A stretch of DNA of 64,000 bases from Roseateles subflavus (GTDB lineage Bacteria; Pseudomonadota; Gammaproteobacteria; Burkholderiales; Burkholderiaceae_C), in NCBI RefSeq assembly GCF_030285365.1, contig NZ_JASVDS010000001.1, positions 744,001 to 808,000 on the forward strand. Direction: 5' to 3'. The notes under the pieces were generated by a model that saw only the letters and a program-made list of their open reading frames with translations, was not told the DNA's origin and searched no databases. Shown piece after piece: positions 14,990-34,588 of this stretch (position 1 is its first letter; the number at the start of each line of letters is the position of its first letter). A program made the position numbers and the translations under genes.

Positions 14990-16281
14990 CAGTTACGCCC
15001 TCCCGGAGACACCATCCTTGTGGCATCTGAAAATACCTTCAGCAGGCCAGCTGCGCGCATCTGGTCCGCCAAGCGTCGTTCGTTTTCTTCGAAGATGGTT
15101 CCGTCAAATGCCATCAGCATGCCCGCACGAGCTGCCCCCTCACGGCCAGCGACGATGCCGCATCTTTCAAACAGCCATTGAGTCATGAATTTCTCGAATT
15201 CCAGCTCAGTGCCCGCGGGTACCGCAGCGAGTACGAGCGCCTCGATCGCCGAAAGCTTCAGAGTGAAGTGGCGTCGCCCTTTCCAAGAGTTCAGCAGCCC
15301 TCCGGCGGCAGCCGTATTTCCGAAGAAGGCGCGGATCTTGCCGAGCTGCTGACCGCTGAGGTGCCCTTGGCGTTCACCTTCTTCGCGTGACACCTGCTCT
15401 ACAACACCAACGATGTCCTTCAGGCATCGTTGAGCGGCTCGACGCAGCTGGGGATGGGTACCGGCACAGTCGACCACAATGGCCATGCCGGCCCCTCCCT
15501 GAAGTGCCAGCGCTCGTGATGCTTGGACTAACGCGAGCCATATGGACGTCCATGCCATGACTGCCCTAGCGCGCTGAACAGCGGGCTGTCCTATGTGACC
15601 GAGGATGTTCCGCATGCCATCCCTGAAGAGCTCCTCCCAGGAATCGTTGCGTACCTCTGTTGCAGCTTCGACTTGATCCAAAGACGGGGCATCTTCGGGG
15701 TCGCATCTGCCCTTTGAACGAAGGGTCGCTGCCAGAAGTTCCAACGGCGAGTCTCGGTCCCGCGGATACAGGGCATCGAAGCCTTCCCGCATTGCCCGTA
15801 GCCGGTTCTGGTCAGGATCCCGCCGAAGGACCGCAAACGCATAGGCACCAGCGCCGCGCAAGTACCGCCGCTCGATCTGCACGTCAACTCCGGCCTGGCG
15901 GCCCTTTCTGGCATCCCAATGCACGAGTGACCGTGTGTACGGAAAGAAGTGCGTGCGCTCCCACCCTTTGGCCTTAACTGCATTAGGTACCTCAAGCTCT
16001 AGGCAGCGCAAAAGGTGGCCAACAGCAACGGCGGTGTGCTCATTCAATAGGACGGATGCCTTACGCGCTGGGTCCAATTGTTCTGTTATCAGCTGTCGTG
16101 CGAAGTCATGCGCGGCACGATGGACGTGAACCTTTGGGGTATCAGGCAAGGTGCCTTCAGCACAACAGACGACAAAGTTGATCAGTTCCAGCCCAGGATA
16201 GTGGCCGGATCCGTCGACGTCGAAAACGCCGCCGAAGAGCTTCGTGGTGATATCCGGTGCACGGACAGACGCAGTCGCCAT
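14989..16281 (-). CDS. dptG: DptG-like restriction subunit
   Basis: 430 residues, middle gene of the operon, overlapping both neighbours by one base (TAATG upstream, TGATG downstream). There is no enzyme motif. The best signature is near residues 345-385: a LKLSAIEALVLAAV helix, an EFEKFMTQWLFER stretch, then CGIVAG. This helical element resembles one found in DptG and related ATPase-partner proteins. Length fits DptG (about 430-440 residues). Identification rests largely on position between a DptF-like and a DptH-like gene. Likely an adaptor in the restriction complex. Confidence 0.65.
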   Translation of the reverse strand: MATASVRAPDITTKLFGGVFDVDGSGHYPGLELINFVVCCAEGTLPDTPKVHVHRAAHDFARQLITEQLDPARKASVLLNEHTAVAVGHLLRCLELEVPNAVKAKGWERTHFFPYTRSLVHWDARKGRQAGVDVQIERRYLRGAGAYAFAVLRRDPDQNRLRAMREGFDALYPRDRDSPLELLAATLRSKGRCDPEDAPSLDQVEAATEVRNDSWEELFRDGMRNILGHIGQPAVQRARAVMAWTSIWLALVQASRALALQGGAGMAIVVDCAGTHPQLRRAAQRCLKDIVGVVEQVSREEGERQGHLSGQQLGKIRAFFGNTAAAGGLLNSWKGRRHFTLKLSAIEALVLAAVPAGTELEFEKFMTQWLFERCGIVAGREGAARAGMLMAFDGTIFEENERRLADQMRAAGLLKVFSDATRMVSPGGRN

Positions 16282-20355: not shown

Positions 20356-20781
20356 ATGTTCTATGCGCTCAGCTGGTCTGTCGTCGCGCTGCTATTGGCC
20401 GTGTGGTCGCTGGCGCTCTGGGCCCTGCACGCGCTGGGCACCTGGGTGCTGACGCAGGCGGGGGGCCTCGCCACGCCCGAGGCCGGCGCCCCCGCGACAC
20501 TGCCTGCCCTGCCGGACTGGCTGGCCCCGTGGCTGCCCGAGAGCTGGGCACCGCTGCTGCAGAGCGCCCTCTCGACGCTGGGGCCGCTCGTGCAGCAGCT
20601 GCTGGAGACGATGCCTGCCTTGGCGGGCGGCCTCACGCTCGCGGCCTGGCTGGTCTGGGGGCTGGGCGCCTTCGTGCTGATGGTCCTCGGGGCGGCCTTG
20701 CACGGGCTCGTGGCGCTGTGGCGCCGGGACCGGCCCGCAGCGGGCCCTGGCCAGAACCGGGTCCTGGTCGCGGCGCCCTGA
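20356..20781 (+). CDS. Small membrane protein of unknown function
   Basis: About 141 residues from MFYALSW; an upstream in-frame ATG at 20278 would overlap the divergent promoter region and is less likely. There are two hydrophobic membrane segments (about residues 1-35 and 95-125), separated by a Pro/Leu-rich loop (LPALPDWLAPWLPESWAPLL). No family recognised. A short membrane-protein gene follows 91 bases downstream and may be cotranscribed. Codon use is typical of the core genome. Confidence 0.65.
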   Translation: MFYALSWSVVALLLAVWSLALWALHALGTWVLTQAGGLATPEAGAPATLPALPDWLAPWLPESWAPLLQSALSTLGPLVQQLLETMPALAGGLTLAAWLVWGLGAFVLMVLGAALHGLVALWRRDRPAAGPGQNRVLVAAP

Positions 20782-20872
20782 GCCGTCCCTTCCGCGGACG
20801 CCGCCGGCTTCCGTCACCCGTTCACCCGTTCACCGACTCACCCCTTGCTTCACGCCATCAGGACCACATCGC

Positions 20873-21031
20873 ATGGACTCCCCGACCCTTCTCCTCGGCC
20901 TCATGACTCTCGCGCTGATCGGCGTCACCTTCCAGGCCTGGCGCATGGGCAATGAGAAGCGCGATGTCGCGCTGCTGGGTGCCTTCAGCGGGGCGCTGGG
21001 GCTGGGCACGGCCCTGGCCGCGGCGCTGTAG
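20873..21031 (+). CDS. 52-residue membrane microprotein
   Basis: Reads MDSPTLLLGLMTLALIGVTF, then QAWRMGNEKRD and a second hydrophobic stretch (VALLGAFSGALGLGTALAAAL). That predicts two membrane helices with a short charged turn. GC-rich third positions and its place after the 141-residue membrane protein support it as a real gene. Function unknown. Confidence 0.5.
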   Translation: MDSPTLLLGLMTLALIGVTFQAWRMGNEKRDVALLGAFSGALGLGTALAAAL

Positions 21032-21075
21032 GCCGGGCCGCGCCTGCGGGACGTGCGCGTGCCGGCACGGCGACG

Positions 21076-21735
21076 TCAGTCGCGAGGCAGCGGGCAGCTC
21101 AGCACCGGGCCGCCGTCATCGATGCGCACCTGCAGGGGCGGCAGGAAGCCCAGGCGATGGAGCGCCGGCAGCAGCTGCTCGTGCGCCGCATCCGTGCGGC
21201 CGCACGCCTGCTGGGCGGCGTCCCCCAGGAACGAGAGGTACAGCGTCTGGCGCGGCAGCAGCGCGGCCAGATGGCTGCACCAGGCGGCGCCCCAGCGGGC
21301 CTTCGCGGCGATGGCATCCCGCGGATGGAAGCGGGCGCCGAGCGCCTCCCAGAACGGCGAACGGCCCTCATGCGTGCGCCAGCCGGGCAGCTCGAGAATC
21401 AGCCAGTCTCCACACGCGGCGCGGTGCTCGGCGATCCAGGCGCGGGCGCCGTTCACGAGCGCGGCCAGCGCGGCCTCGCGGCCGGCCGTGTCGAGCGTCT
21501 CGTCAAGCCACAGCCCGGTGAGCTCGGTCTCGCCCGTGTGATCGTTGCCCAGCAGCAGGGTCTGCTGCACGCGGAACAGGCCCAGCTCCTGCGCCGCATG
21601 CACGACGCGCCCCAGGCGGAAGTGATAACGCGGCAGCTGCGTGCCCAGCCGGGGCACCAGCGTCAGGCCGCCGCGGCCCTCCGGCAGGCGCAGCGACACG
21701 CCGTCCGCCAGGGTCTGGATGTCCAGTGCGCTCAT
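21076..21735 (-). CDS. Short, divergent paralogue of arginine succinyltransferase
   Basis: 219 residues, last gene of the cyanophycin/arginine operon; its ATG overlaps the astA stop (TGATG). It keeps recognisable AstA landmarks: a LLLGNDHTGETELTGLWLD block and a GRSPFWEALGARF block align with HDLTGATLLTSFYL and GQSPFWDAVGRQF in the neighbouring protein. It lacks roughly the first 80 residues of AstA and its C-terminal third is poorly conserved. In some bacteria arginine/ornithine succinyltransferase has two related subunits, so this could be the second one. It could also be a decaying duplicate. Confidence 0.7.
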   Translation of the reverse strand: MSALDIQTLADGVSLRLPEGRGGLTLVPRLGTQLPRYHFRLGRVVHAAQELGLFRVQQTLLLGNDHTGETELTGLWLDETLDTAGREAALAALVNGARAWIAEHRAACGDWLILELPGWRTHEGRSPFWEALGARFHPRDAIAAKARWGAAWCSHLAALLPRQTLYLSFLGDAAQQACGRTDAAHEQLLPALHRLGFLPPLQVRIDDGGPVLSCPLPRD

Positions 21736-22754
21736 CACGTCTCCTCCGGCCACAGCGGCGTGCACAGCAGGGTCTCGCCGATGCGGGGCGTCAGCGCCGG
21801 GAGGTCCTCGACGTGCGCCGTCTCGCCGATCTCGGCCAATACCGCGGCGAAGGCCGCGCGCGCCGGCCGCACCACCAGATGCCATCGACGCGGCCCCGCA
21901 GACGCGCCCGGCTGCACCGTCAGCGCCCGGTGATGCCGGATGCTGCGCAGCGAGGCCAGCGCGGCTTCCACCGTCGGCCCGCCGTCGAAGATGTCGACAT
22001 AGGTGTCGGCATCGAAGCCCTCGTCCATCAGCACCGAGAAGGGCACCTCGCCCACCGGATGCAGCTGCCCCAGCGCCAGCTGCGCCGCGGCCGGCAGCAG
22101 CACCACGGGAATGGGCGAAGGCGGCATGAGGTCGGCGATGAGGGCCTTGCTGCGCCCGCCGATCACCGCCTCGGCCTGCGGGTAGTCCATGCCGAAGAAC
22201 TGCCGGCCGACCGCGTCCCAGAACGGGCTCTGCCCTTGCGGATCGGTGAGGCCGGGGTTCTCGGCGGCGATGCGGTCCGAGAAGCGCTCCGCATGGGCCT
22301 GGATGAAGAGCAGCCGGGCGCGCGACAGCAGCTGCGCCGCGGGCGTGTGCTCGTGGCTCGGCTCCAGGTAGAAGGAGGTCAGCAGCGTCGCGCCTGTCAG
22401 GTCATGGCACAGGTGCAGCGTGTGCAGGCGCTGCGAGATGCCCAGCGTGGCGCTGGCATGCACGACGAACTCGTTGCGGTAGCTGTAGAAGCGGTCGAAG
22501 AAGCCGGCGCTGGCCGCGATGCCGGCGCACCCCACGAGGCGCCCCGCCGTCCGGTCCTCGAGCACGAAGAGATAGGTCTCCTCGCCGCTGGCGTCGTCCG
22601 GGCTGCCGAAGGCCTGCAGCGAGGCCTCGATGCGTGCGCGCAGCTTGCCCTCGTCATTGGGCAGCGAGCTGATGCCGTCGGCGCTGGCCGCCGCCATCCG
22701 CTGCATGTCGGGCAGGTCGCTGGCGGCGACCGGTCGCAGGACCCAGCCGTTCAT
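21735..22754 (-). CDS. astA: Arginine N-succinyltransferase
   Basis: 339 residues, the normal length for AstA/AruG. It has a GNAT-like fold with the conserved blocks FYSYRNEFVVHAS, LHLCHDLTGATLL, LLSRARLLFIQAH, GQSPFWDAVGRQFFGMDY and the YVDIFDGGPTVEA end block. It catalyses succinyl-CoA plus arginine to N2-succinylarginine, the first step of the succinyltransferase route of arginine breakdown. The start overlaps the upstream regulator's stop by 4 bases. No astB, astC or astD is in the window, so later steps must be encoded elsewhere or replaced. Confidence 0.93.
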   Translation of the reverse strand: MNGWVLRPVAASDLPDMQRMAAASADGISSLPNDEGKLRARIEASLQAFGSPDDASGEETYLFVLEDRTAGRLVGCAGIAASAGFFDRFYSYRNEFVVHASATLGISQRLHTLHLCHDLTGATLLTSFYLEPSHEHTPAAQLLSRARLLFIQAHAERFSDRIAAENPGLTDPQGQSPFWDAVGRQFFGMDYPQAEAVIGGRSKALIADLMPPSPIPVVLLPAAAQLALGQLHPVGEVPFSVLMDEGFDADTYVDIFDGGPTVEAALASLRSIRHHRALTVQPGASAGPRRWHLVVRPARAAFAAVLAEIGETAHVEDLPALTPRIGETLLCTPLWPEET

Positions 22755-23734
22755 GTCATGTCTCCCTGGGGCGTCCGGACCAGCCAGCCCGTGCGGCGGC
22801 TGCGCTCCTCGCGCGGTGTGTGGCCGTGATGGGCCTTGTAGGCGTTGGAAAAGTGCGGGCCGGAGGCGAAGCCGCAGCTCAGCCCGACCTGCAGGATCGA
22901 TTGCGTGCCCTGCAGCAGCAGGTGCTGGGCGCGCTCCAGGCGCAGCGACAGGTAGTGGCGCGAGGGCAGCGAGTCCAGGTGCTGCTTGAAGAGCCGCTCC
23001 AGCTGCCGGCGGGAGACGCCCACCAGGCGGGCCACCTCCTCGGTGGGCAGGGGCTCGGCGAGGTTGGCCTCCATGAGCGACAGGGCCTCGGCGAGCTTGG
23101 GGTTGGCGACATCGCGCGATTCGAGGCGCTCGCGCCGCTGGCGTTCGTCGGCGGGGCGACCCTGGCGCAGGTCCATGGCCAGCATCCATTCCTGCTGCAC
23201 GGGCTCGCCGTGCAGCTGCTGGGCCCAGGCTCCGACGAGGTCGGCGGCGGCGGTCGAGGCCGCGCTGAACCGGCGTCGCGACAGGGACAGGTCCCACAGC
23301 CCCTGGGACCAGGCGACGGACGGATGCGCGGCGGTGAGCGCATCCAGCCAGCGCCAGTCGGCACAGGCGCGCTGCCCATCCAGCAGGCCGGCCTGCGCCA
23401 GCGCCGCGGCACCGCCGCCGAGGCTGCCCAGGAGCACGCCCTCGCGGTCCCAGGCCTGCAGCAGGGCGATGACCCGGGGATCCGGCGCCGGCAGCTCGCC
23501 GCCGATGACCACGACGGCCTGCCAGCGGTCCGTCGCCGCCGGCGGGCGCGCCAGGACCGCGGCGCCCGCGCTGGCGGGCACGACGCCGTCGTCCAGCGCC
23601 AGCATCGTCACGTCGTAGACCGCCTGCGCCTGCTGGGCGTTGAGCGTGGCCAGGCCGTCGGTCCAGGCGCCCAGCGCACGCAGCGGGAAGCCTGGCAGCA
23701 GCAGGCATCCGATGGCGTGGGAGGTGGGCGGCAT
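22751..23734 (-). CDS. AraC-family regulator, ArgR/GlxA type
   Basis: 327 residues. Residues 1-190 are a DJ-1/PfpI-like (amidase-fold) sensor domain, and the C-terminal 100 residues hold two helix-turn-helix motifs (LPTEEVARLVGVSRRQLERL and ILQVGLSCGFASGPHFSNAY). This layout is that of Pseudomonas ArgR and carnitine regulators, which sense arginine-like metabolites. It sits inside the operon, 13 bases after the transporter gene and overlapping astA. Probable job: switch the cyanophycin/arginine genes on when arginine or a dipeptide is present. GCAAG repeats 21 bp apart at 27.65-27.74 kb are candidate binding sites. Confidence 0.88.
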   Translation of the reverse strand: MPPTSHAIGCLLLPGFPLRALGAWTDGLATLNAQQAQAVYDVTMLALDDGVVPASAGAAVLARPPAATDRWQAVVVIGGELPAPDPRVIALLQAWDREGVLLGSLGGGAAALAQAGLLDGQRACADWRWLDALTAAHPSVAWSQGLWDLSLSRRRFSAASTAAADLVGAWAQQLHGEPVQQEWMLAMDLRQGRPADERQRRERLESRDVANPKLAEALSLMEANLAEPLPTEEVARLVGVSRRQLERLFKQHLDSLPSRHYLSLRLERAQHLLLQGTQSILQVGLSCGFASGPHFSNAYKAHHGHTPREERSRRTGWLVRTPQGDMT

Positions 23735-23747
23735 GCGTGGACTGTAA

Positions 23748-25136
23748 TCAAGTCCAGCCGTGCAGCGCCGGCCAGCTCAGCACGGCCAGTGCCATCAGCA
23801 GGTACAGGCCCTGCAGCGGCAGCATCCACCGCACCCAGGTGCCCAGCGGCAGCCTGGCCAGCGCCAGCACGCCCACCGTGATGCCCGAGGTCGGGATGAT
23901 GGGCGTCGTCAGCTCGCCCAGCTGGAACGCGAGCACGGCGGTCTGTCGCGTGAGGCCCACGAGGTCGGCCAGCGGCGCCATGATGGGCATGGTCAGCGCG
24001 GCCTGCCCGGTGCCGGAGTGGATGAAGAAGTTGATGACCGACTGGATCAGGAACATCTTGTGCGCCGCGAAGACCGGCTGGTCCGAGGCCACCAGCGGCG
24101 CCAGAGCGTTCAGCAGCGTGTCGATGATCTGCCCCTCGCGCAGCAGGATGACGGTGCCTTTGGCCAGCGCGATCACGAGCGCCGTGCCGACGAGGTCGCG
24201 GGCGCCATGCAGGAAGGCGGCCATGAACTCGTCCGCCGACAGCCGGGCCACCAGGCCCACGCTGACCGACATCACCAGGAACAGCGCGGCGATCTCCTCG
24301 ATGTACCAGCCCAGGCGCACCACGCCGCCGATCATCACCAGCAGCGCGCCGGCGAAGAGGGCCAGCACGGTCTTGTGGCGCCGGGTCATGCCGGGGAACT
24401 GCTCGAAGGCGGCCAGGTCCATCTCGGCGCGGCGGGCGCGGTCGGCCTCGAAGGTGGGGCTCAGGGCGGGGTTGCGGCGGATGCGCGCCGCCCACCACTG
24501 CAGGAAGGCGATGGTGATGCCGGTGGCCAGGAACCAGCACAGCGCGCGGTAGCCGAGGCCCGAGAACAGGGGCAGCCCCGCGATGCCCTGGGCCACGCCG
24601 ACGTTGAAGGGATTCAGGAAGGCCGTCGCGAAGCCGATCTGCGAGCCCACGAAGGGGATGGCCACGCCGGTGAGGGTGTCCAGCTTCAGGGCCAGCGCGA
24701 GGGGGATGAAGATCAGCACGAAGGGGATGGCCTCCTCGGCCATGCCGAAGCTCGCGCCGCCCAGCGAGAACAGCGTGACGAACACGGGGATGAGCAGGGC
24801 CCGCACCACGGCCGAGCGCTGGTGGGCCTGGGCGACGGACTTGATCATCGCGTCGATCGCCTCGGTCTTCTGCAGCACCGCGAAGGCCCCGCCCACGATC
24901 AGGACGAAGCCGATGATCAGCGCCGCCTCCACGAAGCCCTTGATGGGCGCCGTGAGGAAGGCGGCCAGGCCCTGGGGACGGGCCTCCACGAGATGGAAGG
25001 TGCCCGGGAGGATCAACGTCTTGCCGTTGACCAGGGCCGTCTCGAAACGGCCGCCGGGCACGACCCAGGTGGCGAGCGCGATGAGCGCCAGGAGGCTGAC
25101 CAGCAGGACGTAGGTGTTGGGGAGTCGGAGCTTCAT
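23748..25136 (-). CDS. YfcC-family inner-membrane transporter
   Basis: 462 residues, about twelve hydrophobic segments, with the conserved loops GGASFGMAEEAIPF, GSQIGFATAFLNPFNVGVAQ and SGTGQAALTMPIMAPLADLVG of the YfcC/DcuC-like C4-dicarboxylate carrier group. Proteins of this group carry amino acids or peptides, and some are arginine/ornithine exchangers. Its place between a zinc hydrolase and an ArgR-like regulator in a cyanophycinase operon suggests uptake of the beta-Asp-Arg dipeptide or of arginine. That substrate is inferred from context. Confidence 0.85.
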   Translation of the reverse strand: MKLRLPNTYVLLVSLLALIALATWVVPGGRFETALVNGKTLILPGTFHLVEARPQGLAAFLTAPIKGFVEAALIIGFVLIVGGAFAVLQKTEAIDAMIKSVAQAHQRSAVVRALLIPVFVTLFSLGGASFGMAEEAIPFVLIFIPLALALKLDTLTGVAIPFVGSQIGFATAFLNPFNVGVAQGIAGLPLFSGLGYRALCWFLATGITIAFLQWWAARIRRNPALSPTFEADRARRAEMDLAAFEQFPGMTRRHKTVLALFAGALLVMIGGVVRLGWYIEEIAALFLVMSVSVGLVARLSADEFMAAFLHGARDLVGTALVIALAKGTVILLREGQIIDTLLNALAPLVASDQPVFAAHKMFLIQSVINFFIHSGTGQAALTMPIMAPLADLVGLTRQTAVLAFQLGELTTPIIPTSGITVGVLALARLPLGTWVRWMLPLQGLYLLMALAVLSWPALHGWT

Positions 25137-25164
25137 GGGGATGTCCGGAGGCGCGTGGTGGGGA

Positions 25165-26283
25165 TCAGAGCGACAGCAGCTTGCCGCTGCGCCAGGCCTG
25201 GTCGCCGGCGATCTTGGCCAGACGCATGCCGCGGCTGGCGTAGCGACGGGCGGTGCGGGCGAAGCAGCGGCCGCTGGCGCGGGCGTGCAGCGGCGTGCGC
25301 TCGTCGGTCAGGGGGTCGATGATCTCGGCGATGAGCTCGCCCTGGCGCACCCAGTCGCCGGGCGCCTTGGCAAAGACGACGATGCCGGCGCAGGGGGCGG
25401 TCACGGGCTCCACGCCTTCCAGGGGGGTGGCCTCGCAGGGGGGCGTCGACGGGGGCGGCTCGCCGGCCACATGGCCCTGCTGGCGGAGGTAGGCCACCAG
25501 GGCGTCGGCGTCCTGCTCGGCCAGAGCATGGGTGACGTCGGTTTCGCCGCGCAGCTCCACGGTCACGCCAACGCCGCCGTGGGGATCGACGGGATGTCGC
25601 CCCTCGAAGCGCGCCGCGAGCTCCCACCACAGCCGCGCGAGCGTCTCGTCGAAGGGCTCGTCGCCGGCCACGGCCGTGTGCAGCAGCGCCTGTGCGCCGA
25701 GGTAGCCCGCCAGCGGGCGCGCCGCTTCGAGCTGCGGCGTGCCCACGTACAGATGCACGACGGCCTGGTTGTCGCAGTGCAGATCCAGCACCAGGTCGGC
25801 GTCATGGGCCAGCCACTGCAGCTGGCGCTTGAGGGCCTCGGTCTCGGTGGCGGGCTGCCACGCCGCGAGCTGCTCGCCGAGGGCCTGGCGGATGAGGCGG
25901 GTGTTGGCGGCCCGGTCCTCTCCCAGCCGGGACTCGACGGCCCGCGCGACCTCGTCCGCAAGATGCCGGAAGTGCCGGTTGAAGTTCACGCCGGTGGCGA
26001 GGTCGAAGCGGCCCAGGGCGCTGCCCTGCAGGTCCTGGGACAGGCCGACCGGGTTGGCCAGCGGCACGAGCACGACCTCGCCGGCGATGGCGCCTGCGGC
26101 CTCGAGGGCCTTCAGCCGGTGGATCAGGGACTGAGCCACCAGCATGGGCGGCACTTCGTCGGCATGGAGCGAGGCCTGCAGATAGGCCTTGCGCCCGGAC
26201 TGGCGCAGGCCGAAGTGCAGGCTGCGCAGCTGCCGCTGCGTGCCGGCATGGGCGGCGGGAAGGAGATGGTGGTGGGTCAGCAT
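25165..26283 (-). CDS. M14-family zinc hydrolase (succinylglutamate desuccinylase/aspartoacylase type)
   Basis: 372 residues from ATG 26283. Zinc site: His40 and Glu43 (LHADE) and His169 (DLHCDN), with a likely catalytic Glu in GVTVELRGE near 247. NFNRHF carries a substrate-carboxylate Arg. A C-terminal beta-barrel-like domain (TAPCAGIVVFAKAPGDWVRQ) is typical of the family. In a cyanophycinase operon this family includes enzymes that split beta-Asp-Arg dipeptides (the CphZ type). Succinylglutamate desuccinylase is the other option because astA is present. Context favours the dipeptidase, since the cluster lacks a classical isoaspartyl dipeptidase. Confidence 0.85.
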   Translation of the reverse strand: MLTHHHLLPAAHAGTQRQLRSLHFGLRQSGRKAYLQASLHADEVPPMLVAQSLIHRLKALEAAGAIAGEVVLVPLANPVGLSQDLQGSALGRFDLATGVNFNRHFRHLADEVARAVESRLGEDRAANTRLIRQALGEQLAAWQPATETEALKRQLQWLAHDADLVLDLHCDNQAVVHLYVGTPQLEAARPLAGYLGAQALLHTAVAGDEPFDETLARLWWELAARFEGRHPVDPHGGVGVTVELRGETDVTHALAEQDADALVAYLRQQGHVAGEPPPSTPPCEATPLEGVEPVTAPCAGIVVFAKAPGDWVRQGELIAEIIDPLTDERTPLHARASGRCFARTARRYASRGMRLAKIAGDQAWRSGKLLSL

Positions 26284-26336
26284 GGCGTGGGCGGGCGGCG
26301 CCCGGGGGACGCGGCGCCCGCAGGCGGGAAGAGGCC

Positions 26337-27578
26337 TCAGGGGCGGGACGCGGGCACGGTGAGGGGCACGTACAGCGGGTGGGCGACGGTGACGGGCAGC
26401 ACGTCCAGCCGCGCATTGAGCACGGTGTAGTCCTCGCCCCCGAGCGAGCCGCTGAACCATCCCGTCAGGCCCTCGGCCTTGTACAGGCGGAACTCGAAGC
26501 CGAGACGGGCGCTGCGGTTGCGTGCGGCGGCCGGCGGCTCGTAGGCCAGGCCGCGCACCTCCTGCGCCGGGCTGTCGAGCAGCTGGGCCATGGCCGTGAC
26601 GATGGCGCCGTCGCCCAGGATGTCGCCGAAGAAGTGGCTGCGCGGCAGATAGGGCTTGTAGTCGCTGGCGGCGGGGTCGATGCGTGGCTCGCGCAGCTTG
26701 TGTGCCGCGGGGGTGGCGACGTGGCGGGCGAGGTCGTAGCGGTCACCGCTGTCCAGGTAGCTCAGCCGCACGCCGCGCACATTGAAGTGCGGCAGCCTCG
26801 CATCGCTGCGGGCCTCGCGCAGGTCCACCAGCAGGGCGCCGCGCGCGCCGATCACCTCGACGAGACGGTCCTTGATCACCGCGGCCGAGTTCTCCTCGAC
26901 GCCCAGCCCGAGCACATAGCCCAGGCGCTGCATGGCCGGCAGGAGGCGACCGATGCGGCCGCGCTTGAGGAAGTGCTGGTCGATGAAGAGGTCCGCACCG
27001 ACGAAGCCCAGCCCGCGGTCGTACTCGCGACCCTCGCGCCACTGGCCGCGCAGGATGCCGAGGTTGTCCTGCGCATCGCGGAACATCATGCGGCTCATGA
27101 TGGCGGCGCCGGCGCTGGTGCCGGCCACCACGCCGCCGCGATCGAAGACCTCGCGGATGGCCCGCAGCATCGCGGTGGGCTCGCCGCCGGGCTGCAGGGT
27201 GTCCACGATCAGCTCCTGCGCGCCGCCCGAGAAGAACACGCCCTGGCTCGATCGCACCTGCTCGAGGAGGTCCGGGTCCGCGAGCCGAGCGGCCAGGTCG
27301 CTGCCGGCGAGCCGGGGCGCGACGGGGATGAAGCGGGCATCGGCCCCTTCGCGCTGCAGGGCCGCGACGATCTGCTGCGCGCTGCGTTCGGGATTCGCCG
27401 CAGCGGTGGCGAACACGGCGATGCGTGCGCCCGGGCCGCCGGCCTCGCTGACCACGCGCTGCCACACCGCGGTGTTGTCGGTGCGCAGGGCCCCGCCGAT
27501 CACCACGGCCGTGCCGGCGTGGGCTGCGTGCAGGCTGAGGCCGAGGCCGAGGCTCAGAAGAAGTCGTGAGAGTTGCAT
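26337..27578 (-). CDS. Secreted cyanophycinase (S51 peptidase family)
   Basis: 413 residues. N-terminal signal peptide (LLLSLGLGLSLHAAHA, cut near residue 21). The catalytic nucleophile Ser155 lies in GTSAGAAIM, the FFSGGAQ loop is near 116, and DQHFLKRGRIGRL follows as in cyanophycinases. It is longer than the intracellular CphB type, with about 100 extra C-terminal residues of likely beta structure, as in the exported CphE type. It would cut cyanophycin outside or in the periplasm to beta-Asp-Arg. It is the first gene of the leftward operon and divergent from a TonB-dependent receptor. Confidence 0.88.
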   Translation of the reverse strand: MQLSRLLLSLGLGLSLHAAHAGTAVVIGGALRTDNTAVWQRVVSEAGGPGARIAVFATAAANPERSAQQIVAALQREGADARFIPVAPRLAGSDLAARLADPDLLEQVRSSQGVFFSGGAQELIVDTLQPGGEPTAMLRAIREVFDRGGVVAGTSAGAAIMSRMMFRDAQDNLGILRGQWREGREYDRGLGFVGADLFIDQHFLKRGRIGRLLPAMQRLGYVLGLGVEENSAAVIKDRLVEVIGARGALLVDLREARSDARLPHFNVRGVRLSYLDSGDRYDLARHVATPAAHKLREPRIDPAASDYKPYLPRSHFFGDILGDGAIVTAMAQLLDSPAQEVRGLAYEPPAAARNRSARLGFEFRLYKAEGLTGWFSGSLGGEDYTVLNARLDVLPVTVAHPLYVPLTVPASRP

Positions 27579-27901
27579 GACTTCATCTTGTCAGGCTGTC
27601 GGCTGGCCAGCCAGCGGGTTGGGCCTCGATCGGGCCTGTGGCGCGCCTTCCACGCAAGTGCATGTCGCATCGGTGCAAGAGGCCGCCGCGGGCGTGGGCC
27701 GCCGCCGACGCGCGCTTGCCCGGAAGCGACAGGCACTTGCCTGCAAGCGACCGCCGCGCCAAAACCCCATAGGCAAGTCACGAGGCCCGTCCCTAGAGTG
27801 ACTTCAGCACCGCAGCGATCCGCGTCCCGCAACCCTGCCGCTCCCCCCCGTCTCTGCGTCCCGATCCTCTTCCTCTCGCTCTTCCCTTCATTGAGGTTCT
27901 C
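27579..27901. promoter_or_regulatory. Divergent regulatory region with GCAAG repeats
   Basis: This 323-base spacer between cyanophycinase and the TonB-dependent receptor holds GCAAG at 27654, 27675, 27743 and 27773, and CTTGC at 27715 and 27736. The first two are direct repeats exactly 21 bp apart, and so are the two inverted copies, which face the other gene. AraC-type regulators typically bind half-sites two helical turns apart. The operon encodes such a regulator. No gene is seen in the spacer. Confidence 0.5.
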
Positions 27902-30604
27902 ATGACCCGTGCAAGCAAACCGTCCCTGACGATCCTGGCCCGCGCCGCCGCCCTGGCGCTGGCCGCTCCCGCCCTGCTCGGCCACGCCGTGGCCCAGGAC
28001 GCCGCTCCCAAGCTCGAACGTGTGGAGATCACCGGCTCCAGCATCAAGCGTCTGGAGGGCGAGCAGGCCCTGCCCGTGCAGACCATCAAGCGCGAGGAGA
28101 TCGCCAAGGCCGGCGTGACGACCGCCGCCGAGCTGCTGAAGAACATCAGCGCCGCGGCCGCCAACCTGGGCGATGGCGCGTCCATCTCGGACAACACCGG
28201 CGGCCAGCGCGGCTTCAACGGCGCCAACCTGCGCGGCGTCGGCGTGTCCTCGACGCTGGTGCTGCTCAATGGCCGTCGCCTGGCCAACTTCGCCTCGCCC
28301 GGCGACTCTGCCGGCGTCGATCTCAACAGCATCCCCGCCGGCGCCATCCAGCGCGTGGAGGTGCTCAAGGACGGCGCCTCCGCCATCTACGGCACCGACG
28401 CCATCGGCGGCGTGATCAACTTCATCACGCGCCAGGACTACCAGGGCATCGACATGTCCGCCTACGCTTCCGGCACGCAGGAGGGCGGCGCGGGCAAGCG
28501 CACGTTCACCATCTCCGGCGGCACGGGCGACCTGCAGCGCGACGGCTACAACGTCTTCGCCACGCTGGACGTGCAGGCCCTGGACTCGCTGCGCTCCACG
28601 CAGCGCGCGTTCATCCAGGAGCGCCCGCTGGCCGACACCGTGCCCTACTACCTCTCCAGCCGTCCCTACCCCGGCAACATCCGCCTGGCCAGCAGCGCCT
28701 CGGCCCGCGCCGAGCAGCTCGCGGCCATCAATGCCGCGGGCTACACCTTCAACGGCAAGCCCTACACCCAGCGCACGCTGAACCTCTTCGCGCCCGCCTG
28801 CAACCCGCCGGCGTCCGTCTATGCGCCGACCCAGATCGGTGCCGAGGCCTGCGGCTACGACTACATGGCCGACACCGAGATCTATCCGAAATCGGACAAG
28901 ACCTCCTTCCTGACGCGGGGCGTGATGTCGATCGGGGAAGGCCGCCAGGTCTTCGGCGAAGTGCTGCTGGCCCGCGCCGACACCGAGTACGTGCTCTCGC
29001 CCAACCCGACGACGCTCAGCGGCATGAGCTGGTCCGCCGTGAACGCCTTCCTGCCCAAGCCGGTCAGCAATGCGCGCACCTTCGAGATCCGCTTCCGCGC
29101 CAAGGAGCTGGGCAACCGCACGAACGAGGTCCGCAGTGACGCGAATCGCGTGGTCGTGGGCACCACCGGCACCGTGTTCGGCGACTGGGACTACACCGCC
29201 GCGCTGAGCCATGCGCAGAACAAGGTGGCCGACCGCTACGTCGACGGCTACTTCAAGTTCAACGAGCTGCTGGATGCCGTGCGCGCCGGCAAGATCAACC
29301 CCTTCGGCCCCTCGCCCGAATCGAGCCGCGGCCTGATCGACTCCCTGCGCGTTGACGACGTCGCCCGCCGCAGCGAGGGCACGACCTCCGGCCTCGACTT
29401 CAAGCTCACCGGCAGCCTCGGCGCGCTGGAGGGCGGCGACATCGGCCTGGCCGTCGGCGCCGAGCTCCGTCGCGAGACCCAGAAGTTCACCCCGTCCGCG
29501 CTGCTGATCAGCAACAACATCGGCGGCGACCGCGACAGCACGGGCACCAGCCCCGCGCCGCAGGCCACCAGCTACGGCCGCAACATCACCTCCGCCTATG
29601 CCGAAATCAGCGCGCCCCTGACCAAGCAGCTGGAGCTGCAGGCGGCCCTGCGGGCCGACCACTACGAGAAGGTGGGCAGCTCGGTGAATCCCAAGCTCGG
29701 CCTGCGCTACCAGCCGAGCAAGGCGGTGGTGATCCGTGGCTCCGCCGGCACCGGCTTCCGGGCCCCGACCTTCAGCGAGCTCTATCGCCCGACGACCTAC
29801 GGCACGAGCCCGGCCTTCCTGTATGACGCCGTCTACGACGCCTTCGACCAGTACCCCACCGAGAAGATCGCCAACCCGAACCTCAAGCCCGAGAAGAGCC
29901 GCCAGCTGTCCTTCGGGATCGCCTTCGAGCCCAGCAGCACCAGCCTGGTGAGCGTGGACTACTGGCAGATCCACAAGACCGACGTGATCAGCGATCTCTC
30001 CGGCAAGATCATCCTGGAGAACGCCGACCGCTATGCCTCCTACATCAAGCGCGACCCGGCCGACGACTACCCGACGCTGGTCCTGCGCAAGGAGAACCAG
30101 GGCGGTCTCAAGACCTCCGGCCTGGACTTCGAGGCCCGCTGGCGCTCGGCCACGACGGAGGCCGGCCGCTTCGGCCTGAACTTCAGCGGCACCTACGTCA
30201 TGAACTACAAGCGCCAGTTCGGCGCGGACGAGCCCTACCTGGAGAACGCCGGTCGCTTCCTGCAGGACCAGGTCATCCAGCGCTGGCGCCATCGCGTGTC
30301 GGCGGACTGGGACTTCGGCCCGCTCTCGCTGACGCTGGCCAACAGCTACTTCTCGGCCTACACCGACGACAGCTACCTGCCGGGCACCGAGCCGCGCCAG
30401 GTCAAGGCCTACTCGCTGTGGGACCTCAGCGGCAGCTACCGCTTCAACGACCGCCTGAGCGTGCGCGCCGGCCTCCAGAACCTGCTGAACACGGCGCCGC
30501 CCTTCTCGAACCAGTCCTACTACTTCCTCTCGACCTTCGATCCGACCTACACCGATCCCCGGGGCCGGAACTTCTTCGTCAGCCTGAACTACAAGCTGCG
30601 CTGA
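27902..30604 (+). CDS. TonB-dependent outer-membrane receptor
   Basis: 900 residues: signal peptide to about residue 31 (AALALAAPALLGHAVA), plug domain about 40-165 (ITGSSIKRLEGEQALPVQTI, then LRGVGVSSTLVLLNGRRL and VEVLKDGASAIYGTDAIGG), and a C-terminal beta-barrel ending in SLNYKLR with a hydrophobic/aromatic last strand. Divergent from the cyanophycinase operon and sharing its regulatory region, so the natural guess is uptake of cyanophycin fragments or arginine-containing peptides. A siderophore or vitamin cargo cannot be excluded. A terminator follows 29 bases after the stop. Confidence 0.9.
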   Translation: MTRASKPSLTILARAAALALAAPALLGHAVAQDAAPKLERVEITGSSIKRLEGEQALPVQTIKREEIAKAGVTTAAELLKNISAAAANLGDGASISDNTGGQRGFNGANLRGVGVSSTLVLLNGRRLANFASPGDSAGVDLNSIPAGAIQRVEVLKDGASAIYGTDAIGGVINFITRQDYQGIDMSAYASGTQEGGAGKRTFTISGGTGDLQRDGYNVFATLDVQALDSLRSTQRAFIQERPLADTVPYYLSSRPYPGNIRLASSASARAEQLAAINAAGYTFNGKPYTQRTLNLFAPACNPPASVYAPTQIGAEACGYDYMADTEIYPKSDKTSFLTRGVMSIGEGRQVFGEVLLARADTEYVLSPNPTTLSGMSWSAVNAFLPKPVSNARTFEIRFRAKELGNRTNEVRSDANRVVVGTTGTVFGDWDYTAALSHAQNKVADRYVDGYFKFNELLDAVRAGKINPFGPSPESSRGLIDSLRVDDVARRSEGTTSGLDFKLTGSLGALEGGDIGLAVGAELRRETQKFTPSALLISNNIGGDRDSTGTSPAPQATSYGRNITSAYAEISAPLTKQLELQAALRADHYEKVGSSVNPKLGLRYQPSKAVVIRGSAGTGFRAPTFSELYRPTTYGTSPAFLYDAVYDAFDQYPTEKIANPNLKPEKSRQLSFGIAFEPSSTSLVSVDYWQIHKTDVISDLSGKIILENADRYASYIKRDPADDYPTLVLRKENQGGLKTSGLDFEARWRSATTEAGRFGLNFSGTYVMNYKRQFGADEPYLENAGRFLQDQVIQRWRHRVSADWDFGPLSLTLANSYFSAYTDDSYLPGTEPRQVKAYSLWDLSGSYRFNDRLSVRAGLQNLLNTAPPFSNQSYYFLSTFDPTYTDPRGRNFFVSLNYKLR

Positions 30605-30632
30605 TCCTCGTCCCGTCGGCCGACGCGACGTC

Positions 30633-30665
30633 GCCCCGGTGCCGCCCTGGCCCCGGGGCTTTTTT
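30633..30665 (+). terminator. Rho-independent terminator of the TonB-dependent receptor gene
   Basis: GCCCCGG (30633-30639) pairs with CCGGGGC (30653-30659), followed by six T on the plus strand. Confidence 0.85.
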
Positions 30666-30680
30666 CATGGGCTTCCCGCG

Positions 30681-32534
30681 TCAGTACAGGCGGATGCCGG
30701 TGTCGAAGTGCCAGCTGCGGCGGATCTCGATGACGTCGTAGTCGCGGGCCAGCTTCTCGGGGAAGGGCGGGTAGTGGGCGAGGTCCCGTACGGTGCGCTC
30801 GATGGCCGCATCGAGCGCCGGGGAACCACTGGAGCGCACGAAGCTCACGGACTCCACCGAGCCGTCGGCCCGCACCGCCACGGTGACGAGGGCGTCGAAG
30901 TGCGGCTGGCGCAGCGGCTCGCGCAGGCGCTCGAAGCTGGCGGTGTCCAGCTGGATCTTGCGCGCCCAGGCCTCCCCGTAGGCCACGAGGTCGGGGTTCG
31001 GGTCGCTGCGACCCATCAGGCGGCCGCGGCGCTGGCTGCTGGCAAAGGGCAGGTCCTTGGACTGGCGCGCCGACGCCGCTTCGGCATCGCGCTGCGCACG
31101 TTCCTGGTCGAGTTGGCGGCCGATCTCGCGCAGGCGCGCCTCGCGGCGCTCGGCCGCCTCGAGCTGGGCGGCCTTGGCCGCGTTGGCGGCATTCGCGGCA
31201 TTGGCGGCCTGCTCGGCGGCGCGAGCCGCCGCCTGCGCCGCGGCCTGCCGATCCGCTTCCAGGCGGGCGGCAGCCTGGCGCTCCCCTTCCAGGCGCTCGG
31301 CCTCGGCCCGGGCCGCGGCCGCCCGCGCGGCCTCCGCCCGCGAGGCTTCCTGGCGTGCCGCCTCCGCCCGGGCCGCCTCCTGCCGGGCGCTCTCCTGACG
31401 AGCCGCCTCCTGCCGCGCGGCCTCCGCGCGGGCTGCGTCCTGGCGCGCCGCTTCGGCCAGCCGGGCTTCCGCGCGCTGAGCCTCGGCTCGGGTGGCTTCC
31501 TGCCGCGCCTGCTCCGCACGGGCCGCCTCCACGCGTGCAGCCTCCGCACGCGCCGCCTCGGCCTGGGAGGCGGCCATGCGGGCCGTCTCGGCGCGCGCCG
31601 CCTCCTGGCGCACGCGCTCCTGCTGCGCGGCTTCCTGGCGTGCCAGCGCCTGCCGGCCGGCCTCCGCCCGGGCGGCCAGGCGCATCGATTCCTGGCGGGC
31701 TGCCTCGGCCGCGGCGGCTTCCTGGCGGTCCTGGCTCTGCGCCTGGGCCTGGACGCGGGCGAGGCGCTGGGCGGCTTCCCGCGATGTCGTCTCCTGGCGG
31801 GCCAGCGCCCGGCGCAGCAGGCGTTCCAGCTCCTGCCGGTCATCGTCCGGCAGGGTGGCGTCAGGGGCGCTGGATGCCGCCGGGCGCGGCAGCGTTGCCA
31901 CCGTGCGATCGACGGGCGGGGTCAGGTCTTGTGAGGGCTGCACCGGCCGGGCCTTCAGCGCCAGCAGCTCCCGCGCCAGCTCCGCGTCATCGAGCGGCGC
32001 CGCGCTGCTCGGCTCGAGGCTCGCCCCGGGCGCCGAGGCGGCCAGGGACCGGGGCACGCTCCAGGCGTCCGGCTGCGGCGTGTCCAGGGCCACCCAGGCG
32101 CGATCCGCCGCCGCACGCGGGGTCGGTGTGGCCGGTGCGGGCGAGGTCGCGGCGGATGGCTCGGGACGCTGCGCAGGGGGGGGGTCGGCCACCGCCTTCG
32201 ATGGCGCGGGCGGCTCCGCCGGCGCGTCCGCCGGCGCGGTGCTCGTCTGGTCGTCGGGCTGGGCGATCGTCTGCGTCGCGGCAGGGCTCGTGAACGTGGG
32301 GGCGGAAGCCGGCTCGGGCGGCGGGCTCAGGCGGACCTGCAGGGGCGCCGGTGCCGGCTCTCGTACCGGCCCGTCCCAGGGCAGGCCGAGGCCCGGCAGG
32401 CCCAGCCCCTGGCCGCCGAACGTCAGGCTCAGCACAAAGGCGTGCAGGGCGAGCGAGAGCGCCAGGGACAGCGTCGGGCGCCGGACCGTGCCCCGCTCGG
32501 CGCTGCCGGCCGGGTCATGGGCCGCCGCTGCCAT
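30681..32534 (-). CDS. TonB/TolA-like energy-coupling protein with very long helical linker
   Basis: About 617 residues from ATG 32534; the first Met of the longest reading is 76 codons upstream and unlikely. One N-terminal membrane helix (TLSLALSLALHAFVLSLTF) is followed by a Pro/Ala-rich region, then about 300 residues of Ala/Glu/Arg-rich heptad-like repeats (variations on AEAARQEAAR). A TonB C-terminal domain closes it (PHFDALVTVAVRADGSVESV, then SSGSPALDAAIERTVRDL). The layout resembles TolA more than TonB in linker length. It probably spans the periplasm to drive outer-membrane receptors, perhaps the receptor encoded next door. It is convergent with that receptor gene. Confidence 0.85.
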   Translation of the reverse strand: MAAAAHDPAGSAERGTVRRPTLSLALSLALHAFVLSLTFGGQGLGLPGLGLPWDGPVREPAPAPLQVRLSPPPEPASAPTFTSPAATQTIAQPDDQTSTAPADAPAEPPAPSKAVADPPPAQRPEPSAATSPAPATPTPRAAADRAWVALDTPQPDAWSVPRSLAASAPGASLEPSSAAPLDDAELARELLALKARPVQPSQDLTPPVDRTVATLPRPAASSAPDATLPDDDRQELERLLRRALARQETTSREAAQRLARVQAQAQSQDRQEAAAAEAARQESMRLAARAEAGRQALARQEAAQQERVRQEAARAETARMAASQAEAARAEAARVEAARAEQARQEATRAEAQRAEARLAEAARQDAARAEAARQEAARQESARQEAARAEAARQEASRAEAARAAAARAEAERLEGERQAAARLEADRQAAAQAAARAAEQAANAANAANAAKAAQLEAAERREARLREIGRQLDQERAQRDAEAASARQSKDLPFASSQRRGRLMGRSDPNPDLVAYGEAWARKIQLDTASFERLREPLRQPHFDALVTVAVRADGSVESVSFVRSSGSPALDAAIERTVRDLAHYPPFPEKLARDYDVIEIRRSWHFDTGIRLY

Positions 32535-32951
32535 GGCCGCCAGGGCCGCCGGCAGCTGCGTGCGGAAGGCGGGCGGCGAGGCAAGGCGGAAGGGGGCGAC
32601 TTTCAAGCGGGTGGCCGGGCAGGGAAAGTGGCGCTGATTCTCGCCGTTTCCCCCGGGGCGCCTCCAGCCCCGACCCGACCCGTTCGAGGGGGTATGGGCC
32701 CGGCCGGGCCGGCCAGGCTCACCGGACGATCCACCCCTGAGCCTGGGGATGCGCCGGCCCACCTGCTGGAAAACGCCGTTGTGCGCTGCGGCATGATGGG
32801 GCAGATTGCCGCGGTCGCCCGTTGCGGCCGACGCTTGTCAAACGCCTGTCGAATGGCTGTGTCATAAAGCAGCCCGGCCGAGGTGCCGAGGGGCGCGGTG
32901 CTCGCTCACGCGATGAGCCTGCCGCCGTGCCATGTCCATGTGAGGGAATGT
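32535..32951. other. Intergenic region between tonB-like gene and secretion cluster
   Basis: 417 bases, divergent promoters expected. I see no gene or clear repeat. A weak TTGTCA (about 32837) lies before an AT-rich TCATAAA stretch with poor spacing. A GAGGGA ribosome binding site stands just upstream of the ATG at 32952. Confidence 0.35.
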
Positions 32952-33377
32952 ATGAGTCGTTGCCGCAGCCCGCGTGCCGGGCGGGGGTTCACATTGCTGG
33001 AATTGCTGGTGGTGATGGTCATCATCGGCCTGCTGGCCGGCTACGTGGGGCCGCGCTTCTTCGGGCAGATCGGCAAGTCCGAGGTCAAGGTGGCGCGCGC
33101 GCAGCTGGATGCCCTGCAGAAGGCGCTGGACCAGTACCGCATCGACGCCGGCCGCTACCCCAGCAGTGAGCAGGGTTTGGCGGCCCTGCGCGAGAAGCCG
33201 GTGGACGAGGCCCGCTGGGCGGGCCCCTATCTGTCCAAGGCGGTTCCCAAGGACCCCTGGGGCCACGACTACCAGTACCGCTCGCCGGGCGAGCACGGCG
33301 AGTACGACCTGCTGTCCTTCGGCCATGACGGCCGCCCCGGTGGCGACGGCGAGGACGCCGACCTCACCAGCTGGTGA
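32952..33377 (+). CDS. gspG: Major pseudopilin GspG
   Basis: 141 residues. Prepilin signal RGFTLLELLVVMVIIGLL with Glu5 after the cleavage Gly, then the GspG body with RYPSSEQGLAAL and the C-terminal calcium-site region (DPWGHDYQYRSPGEHG...DLLSFG). First gene of a type II secretion-like cluster. Its stop overlaps a GTG of the next gene (GTGA). It would form the pseudopilus that pushes substrates through the secretin. No prepilin peptidase gene is in the window. Confidence 0.93.
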   Translation: MSRCRSPRAGRGFTLLELLVVMVIIGLLAGYVGPRFFGQIGKSEVKVARAQLDALQKALDQYRIDAGRYPSSEQGLAALREKPVDEARWAGPYLSKAVPKDPWGHDYQYRSPGEHGEYDLLSFGHDGRPGGDGEDADLTSW

Positions 33378-33391
33378 CCCGCGCTGCGTCC

Positions 33392-34588
33392 ATGCCCGAG
33401 TTCATCGTCCGATTCCAGCAGGCCGGTTCCGGTGTGCAGCAGGTGCGCCTGCAGGCGCCGGAGCGCCACGCCCTGGCCGCGCTGCTGGGGGTGAGCCCGC
33501 AGCGGATCCTGTCGGTGCAGGAGCTGGACGCGGCCCCCGCGCCGGCGTCGTCGCGCGCCGGCAAACGTTTCCCCCTTCAGCTTTTCAGCCAGGAGCTGTC
33601 GGTGCTGCTGTCCGCCGGGGTGACCCTGGTCGAAGCGCTGGAGACCCTGAGCGAGAAGGAGTCGCAGGCCGACATCCGCGCCGCGCTCGCGGCGGTGGTC
33701 GCGGCGCTCTCGGCGGGCCAGCCCCTCAGCGCGGCCCTGCGCGCCCAGCCCCAGGCCTTCGACGAGCTGATCTGCGCGCTGGTGGCCGCGAACGAGCGCA
33801 GCGGCCAGCTGGCGCCGGCCCTGGCCCAGCATGCCCGCTACCTGGCCTGGGTGCAGCAGCTGCGCGACCGCCTCGTGGCCGCCTGCGTCTATCCCGCCGT
33901 GCTGCTGGGCGTGGGCTCCGCGGTGATCCTCTTCCTCCTGCTGTTCGTGCTGCCGCGCTTCGCGGGCATCCTGGACGGCCTGGGGTCCGACCTGCCCTGG
34001 GGATCCCTGCTGCTGCTGCGCTTCGGCCGCCTCACCGGCGATCATCCCGCCCTGGTGGCGGCGGGCATGGGCGGCGTCGCCCTGGCGGCCGTGCTGGCGC
34101 TGCGCTCCGCCGCGGTGCGGGCTGCCCTGCAGTCCCGCCTGTGGACCTTGCCGGCGCTCGGTCCGCGCCTGCGCGTGCTGGCCCTGGCCCGCTTCTACCG
34201 CAGCCTGGCGATGCTGCTCGGCGCCGGCGTGCCCGTGCTGCAGGCGCTGGAGATCGTGCAGCCCCTGATGGCCCGACCCTGGCAGGGCGCCGTCACCCGC
34301 CTGGCTGCGGCCGTGGGCGAGGGCCGGCGCTTCTCCGAGGCCCTGGAGGCCGAGGACCTCGCCACGCCCGTTGCCCGGCGCATGGTGCGCGTCGGCGAGC
34401 GCAGCGGCGAGCTCGCCGCCATGCTCGAACGCGCCGCGGCCTTCCATGACGACGAGGCCGTGCGCCTCAGCGAGTTCCTCAGCCGCGCCATCAACCCGGC
34501 CCTGATGCTGATCATGGGCGTCCTCATCGGCGGCATCATCGTGCTGATGTACCTGCCCATCTTCCAGCTGGTGGAGCAGGTGCAATGA
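33392..34588 (+). CDS. gspF: Type II secretion inner-membrane platform protein GspF
   Basis: 398 residues from MPEFIVRF; a GTG start 18 bases upstream that overlaps the gspG stop is possible. Two GspF/PilC domains each have the conserved LSVLLSAGVTLVEALETL / LAMLLGAGVPVLQALEIV helix and VRVGERSGELAAMLE block. Three membrane segments (about 170-195, 215-240 and near the C-terminus IMGVLIGGIIVLMYLPIF). It overlaps gspE by 4 bases. Confidence 0.92.
   Translation: MPEFIVRFQQAGSGVQQVRLQAPERHALAALLGVSPQRILSVQELDAAPAPASSRAGKRFPLQLFSQELSVLLSAGVTLVEALETLSEKESQADIRAALAAVVAALSAGQPLSAALRAQPQAFDELICALVAANERSGQLAPALAQHARYLAWVQQLRDRLVAACVYPAVLLGVGSAVILFLLLFVLPRFAGILDGLGSDLPWGSLLLLRFGRLTGDHPALVAAGMGGVALAAVLALRSAAVRAALQSRLWTLPALGPRLRVLALARFYRSLAMLLGAGVPVLQALEIVQPLMARPWQGAVTRLAAAVGEGRRFSEALEAEDLATPVARRMVRVGERSGELAAMLERAAAFHDDEAVRLSEFLSRAINPALMLIMGVLIGGIIVLMYLPIFQLVEQVQ

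Follow-up and report, generated by a model that had tools for sequence, protein, structure and literature searches.

A probable cyanophycin utilisation locus of Roseateles subflavus with its own TonB-dependent receptor and an arginine-type switch

Cyanophycin is a large nitrogen store of cyanobacteria and some other bacteria, and little is known of how other bacteria take it up. This study concerns seven genes of Roseateles subflavus, lying in a stretch of 64,000 nucleotides (the window; G000:C1:744001-808000 in our numbering, contig NZ_JASVDS010000001.1 of assembly GCF_030285365.1) from a genome of 5.05 Mb. Together they probably constitute a cyanophycin utilisation locus with its own TonB-dependent outer-membrane receptor and an arginine-type switch. 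Loci of this general kind are already known. The cyanophycin utilisation loci (Ben Hania et al.; Flammeovirga pacifica), as presented in the available text of PMC10206079, bring together a cyanophycinase, a transporter and a dipeptidase that acts on the cyanophycinase product, the dipeptidase being of the IadA type in the original description. The same text assigns M14 proteins found in cyanophycin clusters to the beta-Asp-Arg/Lys dipeptidases; these CphZ hydrolases (Sharon et al. 2023) are linked there to an amino-acid ATP-binding cassette (ABC) transporter. In Pseudomonas aeruginosa, arginine uptake and the arginine succinyltransferase (AST) pathway are encoded by aotJQMOP-argR and aruCFGDBE (available parts of PMC8871633 and PMC12341379). 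Finally, the available text of Tang et al. 2012 (PMC3400609) places a TonB-dependent transporter beside a cyanophycinase in Citromicrobium sp. JLT1363, with cyanophycin as the proposed substrate. In the openly accessible literature we found no other paper that connects cyanophycin to TonB, to outer membrane receptors or to succinyltransferase; the available part of PMC7564069 contains no cyanophycin-receptor or cyanophycin-succinyltransferase link.

The R. subflavus locus likewise clusters a cyanophycinase and a transporter with a predicted dipeptidase. It differs in its CphZ-type dipeptidase, reported to catalyse the same reaction as IadA and IaaA, neither of which is among the seven genes. 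It differs further in the linked TonB-dependent receptor, in the AraC-type regulator with a proposed operator, in an orphan pair of AstA genes and in a host that encodes cyanophycin synthetase. With that synthetase on contig C17, the genome would be set aside by the filter “no cphA1 in genome” of Table 4 in PMC10206079, which is not part of the locus definition. The M14 protein shares family (M14/AstE-AspA) and active-site motifs with the CphZ hydrolases as described, but its gene accompanies that of a YfcC carrier and not those of an amino-acid ABC transporter. The genomic argument, a receptor adjoining a cyanophycinase, is the one made for the single Citromicrobium strain; here it is extended to a receptor group defined by sequence and followed over 399 genomes and 80 named loci. 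What sets this locus apart from the known kind is its receptor group, together with the proposed operator and the orphan pair of AstA genes.

Gene content and operon layout can be read directly from the sequence (Table 1). All seven genes are present at 21076-30604 with intact reading frames. Those on the minus strand (CphE, CphZ, YfcC, AraC, AstA1 and AstA2, in this order) are separated by 53, 28, 13, -4 and -1 bases and, judged by this spacing, make up one tight operon. The receptor gene is divergent, 323 bases away from CphE. The grouping exceeds chance, the same genes recurring together in other genomes. Among the 80 named loci, the closest relative is that of Mitsuaria sp. WAJ17 (L101), with a 94% identical receptor and the seven genes in identical order, in a collinear block (3191-13270 of L101) that runs from the end of AstA2 to the contig end. 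Ratios of nonsynonymous to synonymous substitution (dN/dS) between the two are 0.25 for CphE, 0.24 for CphZ, 0.09 for YfcC, 0.22 for AraC, 0.20 for AstA1, 0.29 for AstA2 and 0.11 for the receptor. Such values, 0.09-0.29 across all seven genes, are as expected under purifying selection. A previous interpretation made from the letters alone (the sequence-only reading) had listed the same genes; all lie where it placed them and the family models agree, except that its single “succinyltransferase” is two AstA genes, the second of them short (219 against about 340 amino acids).

CphE narrowly passes the NCBIfam cyanophycinase model TIGR02069 (126.9 bits, cut-off 126.6) and matches the cyanophycinase structures 7uqv and 3en0 in the PDB. 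The motifs GTSAGA (153-158), DQH (200-202) and GVEENSA (226-232) correspond to a Ser-His-Glu type site, and the N-terminus resembles a signal peptide as judged by eye. These features support the assignment as a secreted-type cyanophycinase of the CphE family, in keeping with the sequence-only reading. In five other loci (L041, L042, L044, L047 and L049) CphE stands with an M64 peptidase, a gene with an argininosuccinate-lyase domain and gyrase/topoisomerase IV genes, and no receptor of the group is seen (domains scanned in L041).

The M14 protein carries the motifs HADE (at 40), DLHCDN (at 167) and TVELRG (at 241), matching HxxE, DLH and the catalytic Glu. In 83 collected proteins, a loose pattern finds the first and third motif in all and the second in 81. 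In the PDB, the protein matches 8ein (222 bits, residues 6-363) and 8eip (219 bits), followed by two entries of the desuccinylase/aspartoacylase family at 88-91 bits and nothing further to E 0.1. The Glu of TVELRG is shared with 8ein and replaced by Ala in 8eip. We take 8EIN to be the CphZ of the 2023 work of Sharon, McKay, Nguyen and Schmeing. In a 44-row tree the CphZ-type rows and 8ein are split from the AstE proteins of Niveibacterium, G308 and E. coli at 100/100. The separating branch is long, the meeting of the long AstE and 8ein branches calls for caution, and 8ein itself arises on the CphZ side from a node that the tree does not resolve. The AstE proteins of two relatives match AstE models; the M14 protein has no NCBIfam match at 0.001. 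We therefore rejected a succinylglutamate desuccinylase, the alternative that the sequence-only reading had proposed to settle by phylogeny, despite the name under which the nearest structures are deposited. The evidence supports a CphZ-type beta-Asp-Arg dipeptidase. The genome has a second CphZ at C20:99417-100517, adjoining ABC-transporter genes (binding protein and permease).

The receptor (plug PF07715, 77.1 bits; beta-barrel PF00593, 156.9 bits) is tied to cyanophycinase well beyond this locus. Searching 399 genomes of the order (E <= 1e-20 for CphE, E <= 1e-130 for the receptor) gave CphE matches in 27 and receptor matches in 16. Receptor relatives of 49-100% identity occur in 14 of the 27 cyanophycinase genomes and in none of the other 372 (Fisher p = 8e-19, inflated by kinship); the two further genomes with a receptor match (G007 and G381) have 38% identity and lack CphE. 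Thirteen of the 15 close receptor copies adjoin CphE. A survey of named genomes starting from the receptor (best 80 of 578 matches) found CphE in 65 of the 80 loci, CphZ in 70, and AraC together with AstA1 in 20; here and below, “absent” means not within the DNA examined, which is bounded by contig ends and by the length of flank retrieved. Two of the loci where CphE was missed (L117 and L140) carry diverged cyanophycinase-like proteins, at 80 and 82 bits against the cut-off of 126.6. A third, L136, has neither CphE nor CphZ but an isoaspartyl dipeptidase, IadA, over cut-off (382.8 bits). This locus is from Lysobacter tabacisoli; IadA lies at 12914-14053 beside the same receptor and AraC-AstA genes, and CphZ was not found in the locus. 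Another such pair of R. subflavus (CphE2-receptor2) lies some 52 kb away, at C1:714012-718401; the two receptors of the genome are 48-50% identical. In L107, L108, L110 and L114 two CphE-receptor pairs stand side by side. We conclude that the receptor is not a chance neighbour of cyanophycinase, which bears out its inclusion in the unit by the sequence-only reading. Strict co-inheritance of the two genes was rejected: receptor and CphE are 77% and 52% identical, respectively, in L034, and 71-72% and 42-44% in L102 and L103.

Several observations weigh against reading the genes as a cyanophycin uptake locus. The two close receptor copies that do not adjoin CphE (G056 and G269) have no CphE or CphZ within 20 kb and no cyanophycin gene among two scanned neighbours each. 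Conversely, a CphE match of at least 42% identity occurs in 17 genomes of the order, and three of them (G021, G298 and G380) have no receptor at the threshold used. Seven receptor copies of the named survey that lie well inside contigs (L153, L172-L175, L189 and L190) have no CphE or CphZ homologue in the flank examined; in L153, L172, L175, L189 and L190, a Pfam scan of between one and three neighbouring genes per copy revealed no cyanophycin gene. Since the counts cover related genomes and the two samples share some members (for example L121/G354 and L129/G125), the Fisher values overstate independence. The deposited molecule name of both 8ein and 8eip is “Succinylglutamate desuccinylase”. 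In this lineage the CphE that adjoins CphZ, in the window and ten relatives, has GGAQ[EA]LI (GGAQELI in the window) at a position where Arg occupies the sixth place in 86 of 99 collected CphE proteins, mostly as the nearly invariant GGDQxRI. Furthermore, beta-Asp-Arg is small enough for porins, so the receptor is not strictly required.

Some of these points would fit a more general role, in which the locus scavenges isoaspartyl- or arginine-peptides from damaged proteins or other arginine-rich material, cyanophycin being one substrate among others. The missing GGDQxRI consensus argues in this direction, as do the S46 peptidase and DUF885 protein near the second CphE-receptor pair and the presence in the place of CphZ, in L136, of IadA, an enzyme reported as promiscuous in the available text of PMC10206079. 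We consider this improbable, given how closely the distribution of the receptor group follows that of cyanophycinase (14 of 27 genomes against none of 372). Within 20 kb of the second pair (L032, G000:C1:706500-726400) lies also UvrA.

A further complication is that the genome encodes a cyanophycin synthetase (contig C17, G000:C17:169730-174477; 952.1 bits, cut-off 850) next to a synthetase-like protein (700.2 bits). Therefore, scavenging and recycling are both possible purposes. At the extreme, the locus would serve to mobilise the cell's own cyanophycin, such as polymer from lysed siblings, instead of scavenging. This is a slightly more remote prospect still: the synthetase genes reside on another contig (C17) than the locus (C1), CphE has an export signal as judged by eye and an outer-membrane receptor is adjacent to it.

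The divergent region between CphE and the receptor contains a candidate operator. The pattern GTCGC-N8-AA-N6-GTCGC-N8-AA, searched with one mismatch allowed, occurs once in the window, as an exact match (27716-27751; 0.01 expected). It comprises two tandem half-sites 21 bases apart, each fitting a GTCGC-N8-AA core, the first beginning with GGTCGC; Tandem Repeats Finder reports a 21-base repeat at 27706-27751. Genome-wide, this is the only exact match, five more having one mismatch; the reversed control pattern gives 22 matches. The pattern was chosen from the window and L101, leaving the remaining loci as the test. All 26 loci that have the AraC gene carry an operator-type site in front of the receptor: 22 of these sites are exact, three have one mismatch and one has two. 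Four second receptors in AraC loci have none. The loci with no AraC gene in view contain 70 receptor copies, of which 66 lack a site, one has a site with two mismatches and three have exact sites (Fisher p = 1.6e-20, with some rows excluded and inflated by kinship). The three are L104 and L109, whose contigs end near the receptor, and L179, where the DNA ends about 200 bases beyond the neighbouring CphZ; an AraC gene could lie unseen at all three.

The regulator itself scores 76 bits with HTH_18 and falls below cut-off for the DJ-1 part (22.8 bits, cut-off 26.6); a relative in L036 passes both. Pseudomonas ArgR has this layout, a DJ-1/PfpI-like part joined to an AraC helix-turn-helix, and binds tandem TGTCGC-N8-AA-N5 half-sites; ArgR of the E. 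coli type has a different fold. The “ArgR-like” regulator of the sequence-only reading is thus of the AraC type, with only a faint resemblance to DJ-1/PfpI, and not an ArgR of the E. coli type. It is encoded in an operon of arginine genes. We infer that the regulator binds the tandem site and mainly serves its own locus.

Receptor and hydrolases are associated with alternative carriers and regulators. The window carrier scores 360.7 bits with PRK11588, under the cut-off of 500, and 322.6 bits with DcuC. In the receptor-first survey YfcC is found in 60 of the 80 loci and an ABC solute-binding protein in nine, never both. Five loci (L033, L035, L036, L038 and L039) have the order receptor, then divergently CphE, binding protein, permease(s), CphZ, ATPase, AraC, aminotransferase, AstA, AstA, with an AstD over cut-off directly behind the second AstA (gene names from the Pfam results for L036); in the window, L043 and L045, YfcC takes the place of the ABC genes. 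Loci without AraC can have a regulator of the RpiR type (L045, L043, L040 and L117). The gene order of the five ABC-type loci resembles that of the P. aeruginosa aot-argR and aru operons, as far as these are described. Compared with the latter, the window has YfcC for the ABC genes and no aminotransferase in the locus, and its genome lacks AstD and AstB. From gene order, we presume that aotO is the CphZ gene.

Taken together, the data suggest the following scheme, in which the cellular location of the proteins, the cargo of receptor and carrier, and the signal, operator binding and direction of action of the regulator are inferred. CphE would be exported across the inner membrane and cut the polymer to beta-Asp-Arg. 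Polymer ends, oligomers or the dipeptide would pass the outer membrane through the TonB-dependent receptor, and the product would cross the inner membrane through the YfcC carrier, to be split to Asp and Arg by a cytoplasmic CphZ. The AraC-type regulator would sense arginine or a derivative and, through the tandem operator, work on both divergent promoters. As for the AstA pair, its substrate is probably arginine, ornithine or the dipeptide, and it does not feed the classical AST pathway. The scavenging unit of the sequence-only reading is retained in this scheme as to cyanophycinase, CphZ-type dipeptidase, carrier, regulator and cyanophycinase-linked receptor; its completeness and its succinylation route are not.

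The reason lies in the genes for arginine succinylation. AstA1 matches 1yle in the PDB (312 bits) and falls below the equivalog cut-offs of TIGR03245 and TIGR03244. No AstB match was found in the whole genome, in a search that detected the E. coli and Caulobacter positive controls, and the best AstD match reached 263.7 bits against a cut-off of 579.3, with none at 1e-150. A full AST pathway elsewhere in the genome was thus rejected as to AstB and AstD (AstC and AstE were not searched for). The check was extended (E <= 1e-150) to 25 genomes: R. subflavus, 19 named genomes with linked AstA and five named genomes with receptor and CphE in which no AstA was seen in the locus. AstB and AstD occur in the same six, namely the five comparison genomes and Niveibacterium; both are missing from 18 of the 19 genomes with linked AstA. 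Ten of these 19 are metagenome-assembled genomes, for which absence is weaker, and eight of the other nine lack both genes. Of the two pairs of AstA genes in Niveibacterium, one adjoins its AstB and AstD and the other lies at the cyanophycin locus.

In a tree of AstA1, 20 of 31 rows, including the window, form a 100/100 clade drawn from Sphaerotilaceae, Rhodocyclaceae, Lysobacteraceae and Steroidobacteraceae. The Niveibacterium AST copy falls outside, as does L118, likewise without AstB. Taking as core residues the 45 positions invariant in 20 subunits from AST operons, orphan AstA1 proteins keep 41-45 (21 rows; 42 in the window) and orphan AstA2 proteins 21-35 (20 rows; 25 in the window); in L146 only one AstA was found. 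The pair is thus a conserved orphan in which, by this measure, AstA1 is intact and AstA2 eroded. Without AstB and AstD and with an eroded second AstA, the AST pathway cannot run in its known form. This goes against the proposal that the locus is “complete-looking” and feeds arginine to succinylation.

The pair may be left over from a lost pathway, or it may have been repurposed. That it is the decaying rest of a full aru (AST) operon, of the kind still linked to CphE in the five ABC-type loci, has an appreciable, if minority, chance of being the right answer. The window AstA1 is 57-62% identical to AstA1 of these loci, in which an aminotransferase gene persists and the AstA pair is immediately followed by an over-cut-off AstD. 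The window genome no longer has AstB or AstD, and its AstA2 is short with 25 of 45 core residues. Decay is harder to reconcile with an AstA1 that keeps 41-45 core residues in 21 of 21 rows and is maintained in a single 100/100 clade that spans Sphaerotilaceae, Lysobacteraceae and Steroidobacteraceae, with dN/dS values of 0.20 and 0.29 for AstA1 and AstA2, or with the coexistence of the orphan pair and a separate AST operon in Niveibacterium. We therefore lean to a repurposed enzyme. A bolder proposal, which we put forward tentatively and hold to be somewhat unlikely as a whole, combines two ideas. The locus would be a polymer-peptide uptake system akin to polysaccharide utilisation loci, with a constant TonB receptor and interchangeable hydrolases, carriers and regulators. 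The AstA pair, in which an eroded pseudo-subunit accompanies an intact one, would be a new enzyme that modifies arginine; its product would not be degraded by the AST pathway and would perhaps act as inducer, or as a sink that resets the AraC-type switch.

Table 1. Genes and proposed operator of the cyanophycin locus (window positions).
Feature	Position	Strand	Evidence
AstA/AruG-like second subunit, short, eroded (219 aa)	21076..21735	-	AstA family 118.4 bits; 25/45 core residues
AstA/AruF-like arginine succinyltransferase subunit	21735..22754	-	PF04958 333.6 bits; 42/45 core residues
AraC-family regulator, weak DJ-1/PfpI-like N-terminus	22751..23734	-	HTH_18 76 bits
YfcC/DcuC-type inner-membrane carrier, proposed dipeptide/amino-acid importer	23748..25136	-	DcuC 322.6 bits
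CphZ-type M14 beta-Asp-Arg hydrolase, 372 aa	25165..26283	-	AstE_AspA_cat 60.9 bits
CphE-type cyanophycinase, 413 aa, S51	26337..27578	-	TIGR02069 126.9 bits
Proposed operator GTCGC-N8-AA-N6-GTCGC-N8-AA, divergent promoter region	27716..27751	-	pattern search
TonB-dependent outer-membrane receptor, 900 aa	27902..30604	+	TonB plug + barrel
aa, amino acids.

Converging on the receptor gene is a frame (30681-32762, minus strand) for an Ala-rich protein of 693 amino acids with a TonB C-terminal domain. A role as the receptor's dedicated TonB was unsupported: among 21 mapped sources, its cluster adjoins the receptor in the window and L101 (a cut-off piece) only. Type II secretion genes follow from position 32883. 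At 32883-34588 on the plus strand, GspG scores 180 bits, which passes its cut-off, and a GspF-like protein 246.3 bits, under the cut-off of 424; next comes a GspE-like frame (34585-36126) named by eye. By their position, they are possible exporters of CphE. On the other side, at 14989-18158 (minus strand), two large frames adjoin each other; in one of them a P-loop-like motif, GDAGHGKTH, was seen by eye. A sigma-70 promoter scan of 20700-30800 found none against 0.2 expected and was uninformative. Comparison of 11 kb of the window with a plasmid collection matched one record over 2% of the query, corresponding to a LysR gene at its edge.

The cyanophycinase-linked receptor group and the proposed operator supply directly testable genes for the step in which cyanophycin or its fragments would be taken up. 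The orphan AstA pair raises the question of the fate of arginine in these bacteria, and of why AstA should be kept without AstB and AstD.

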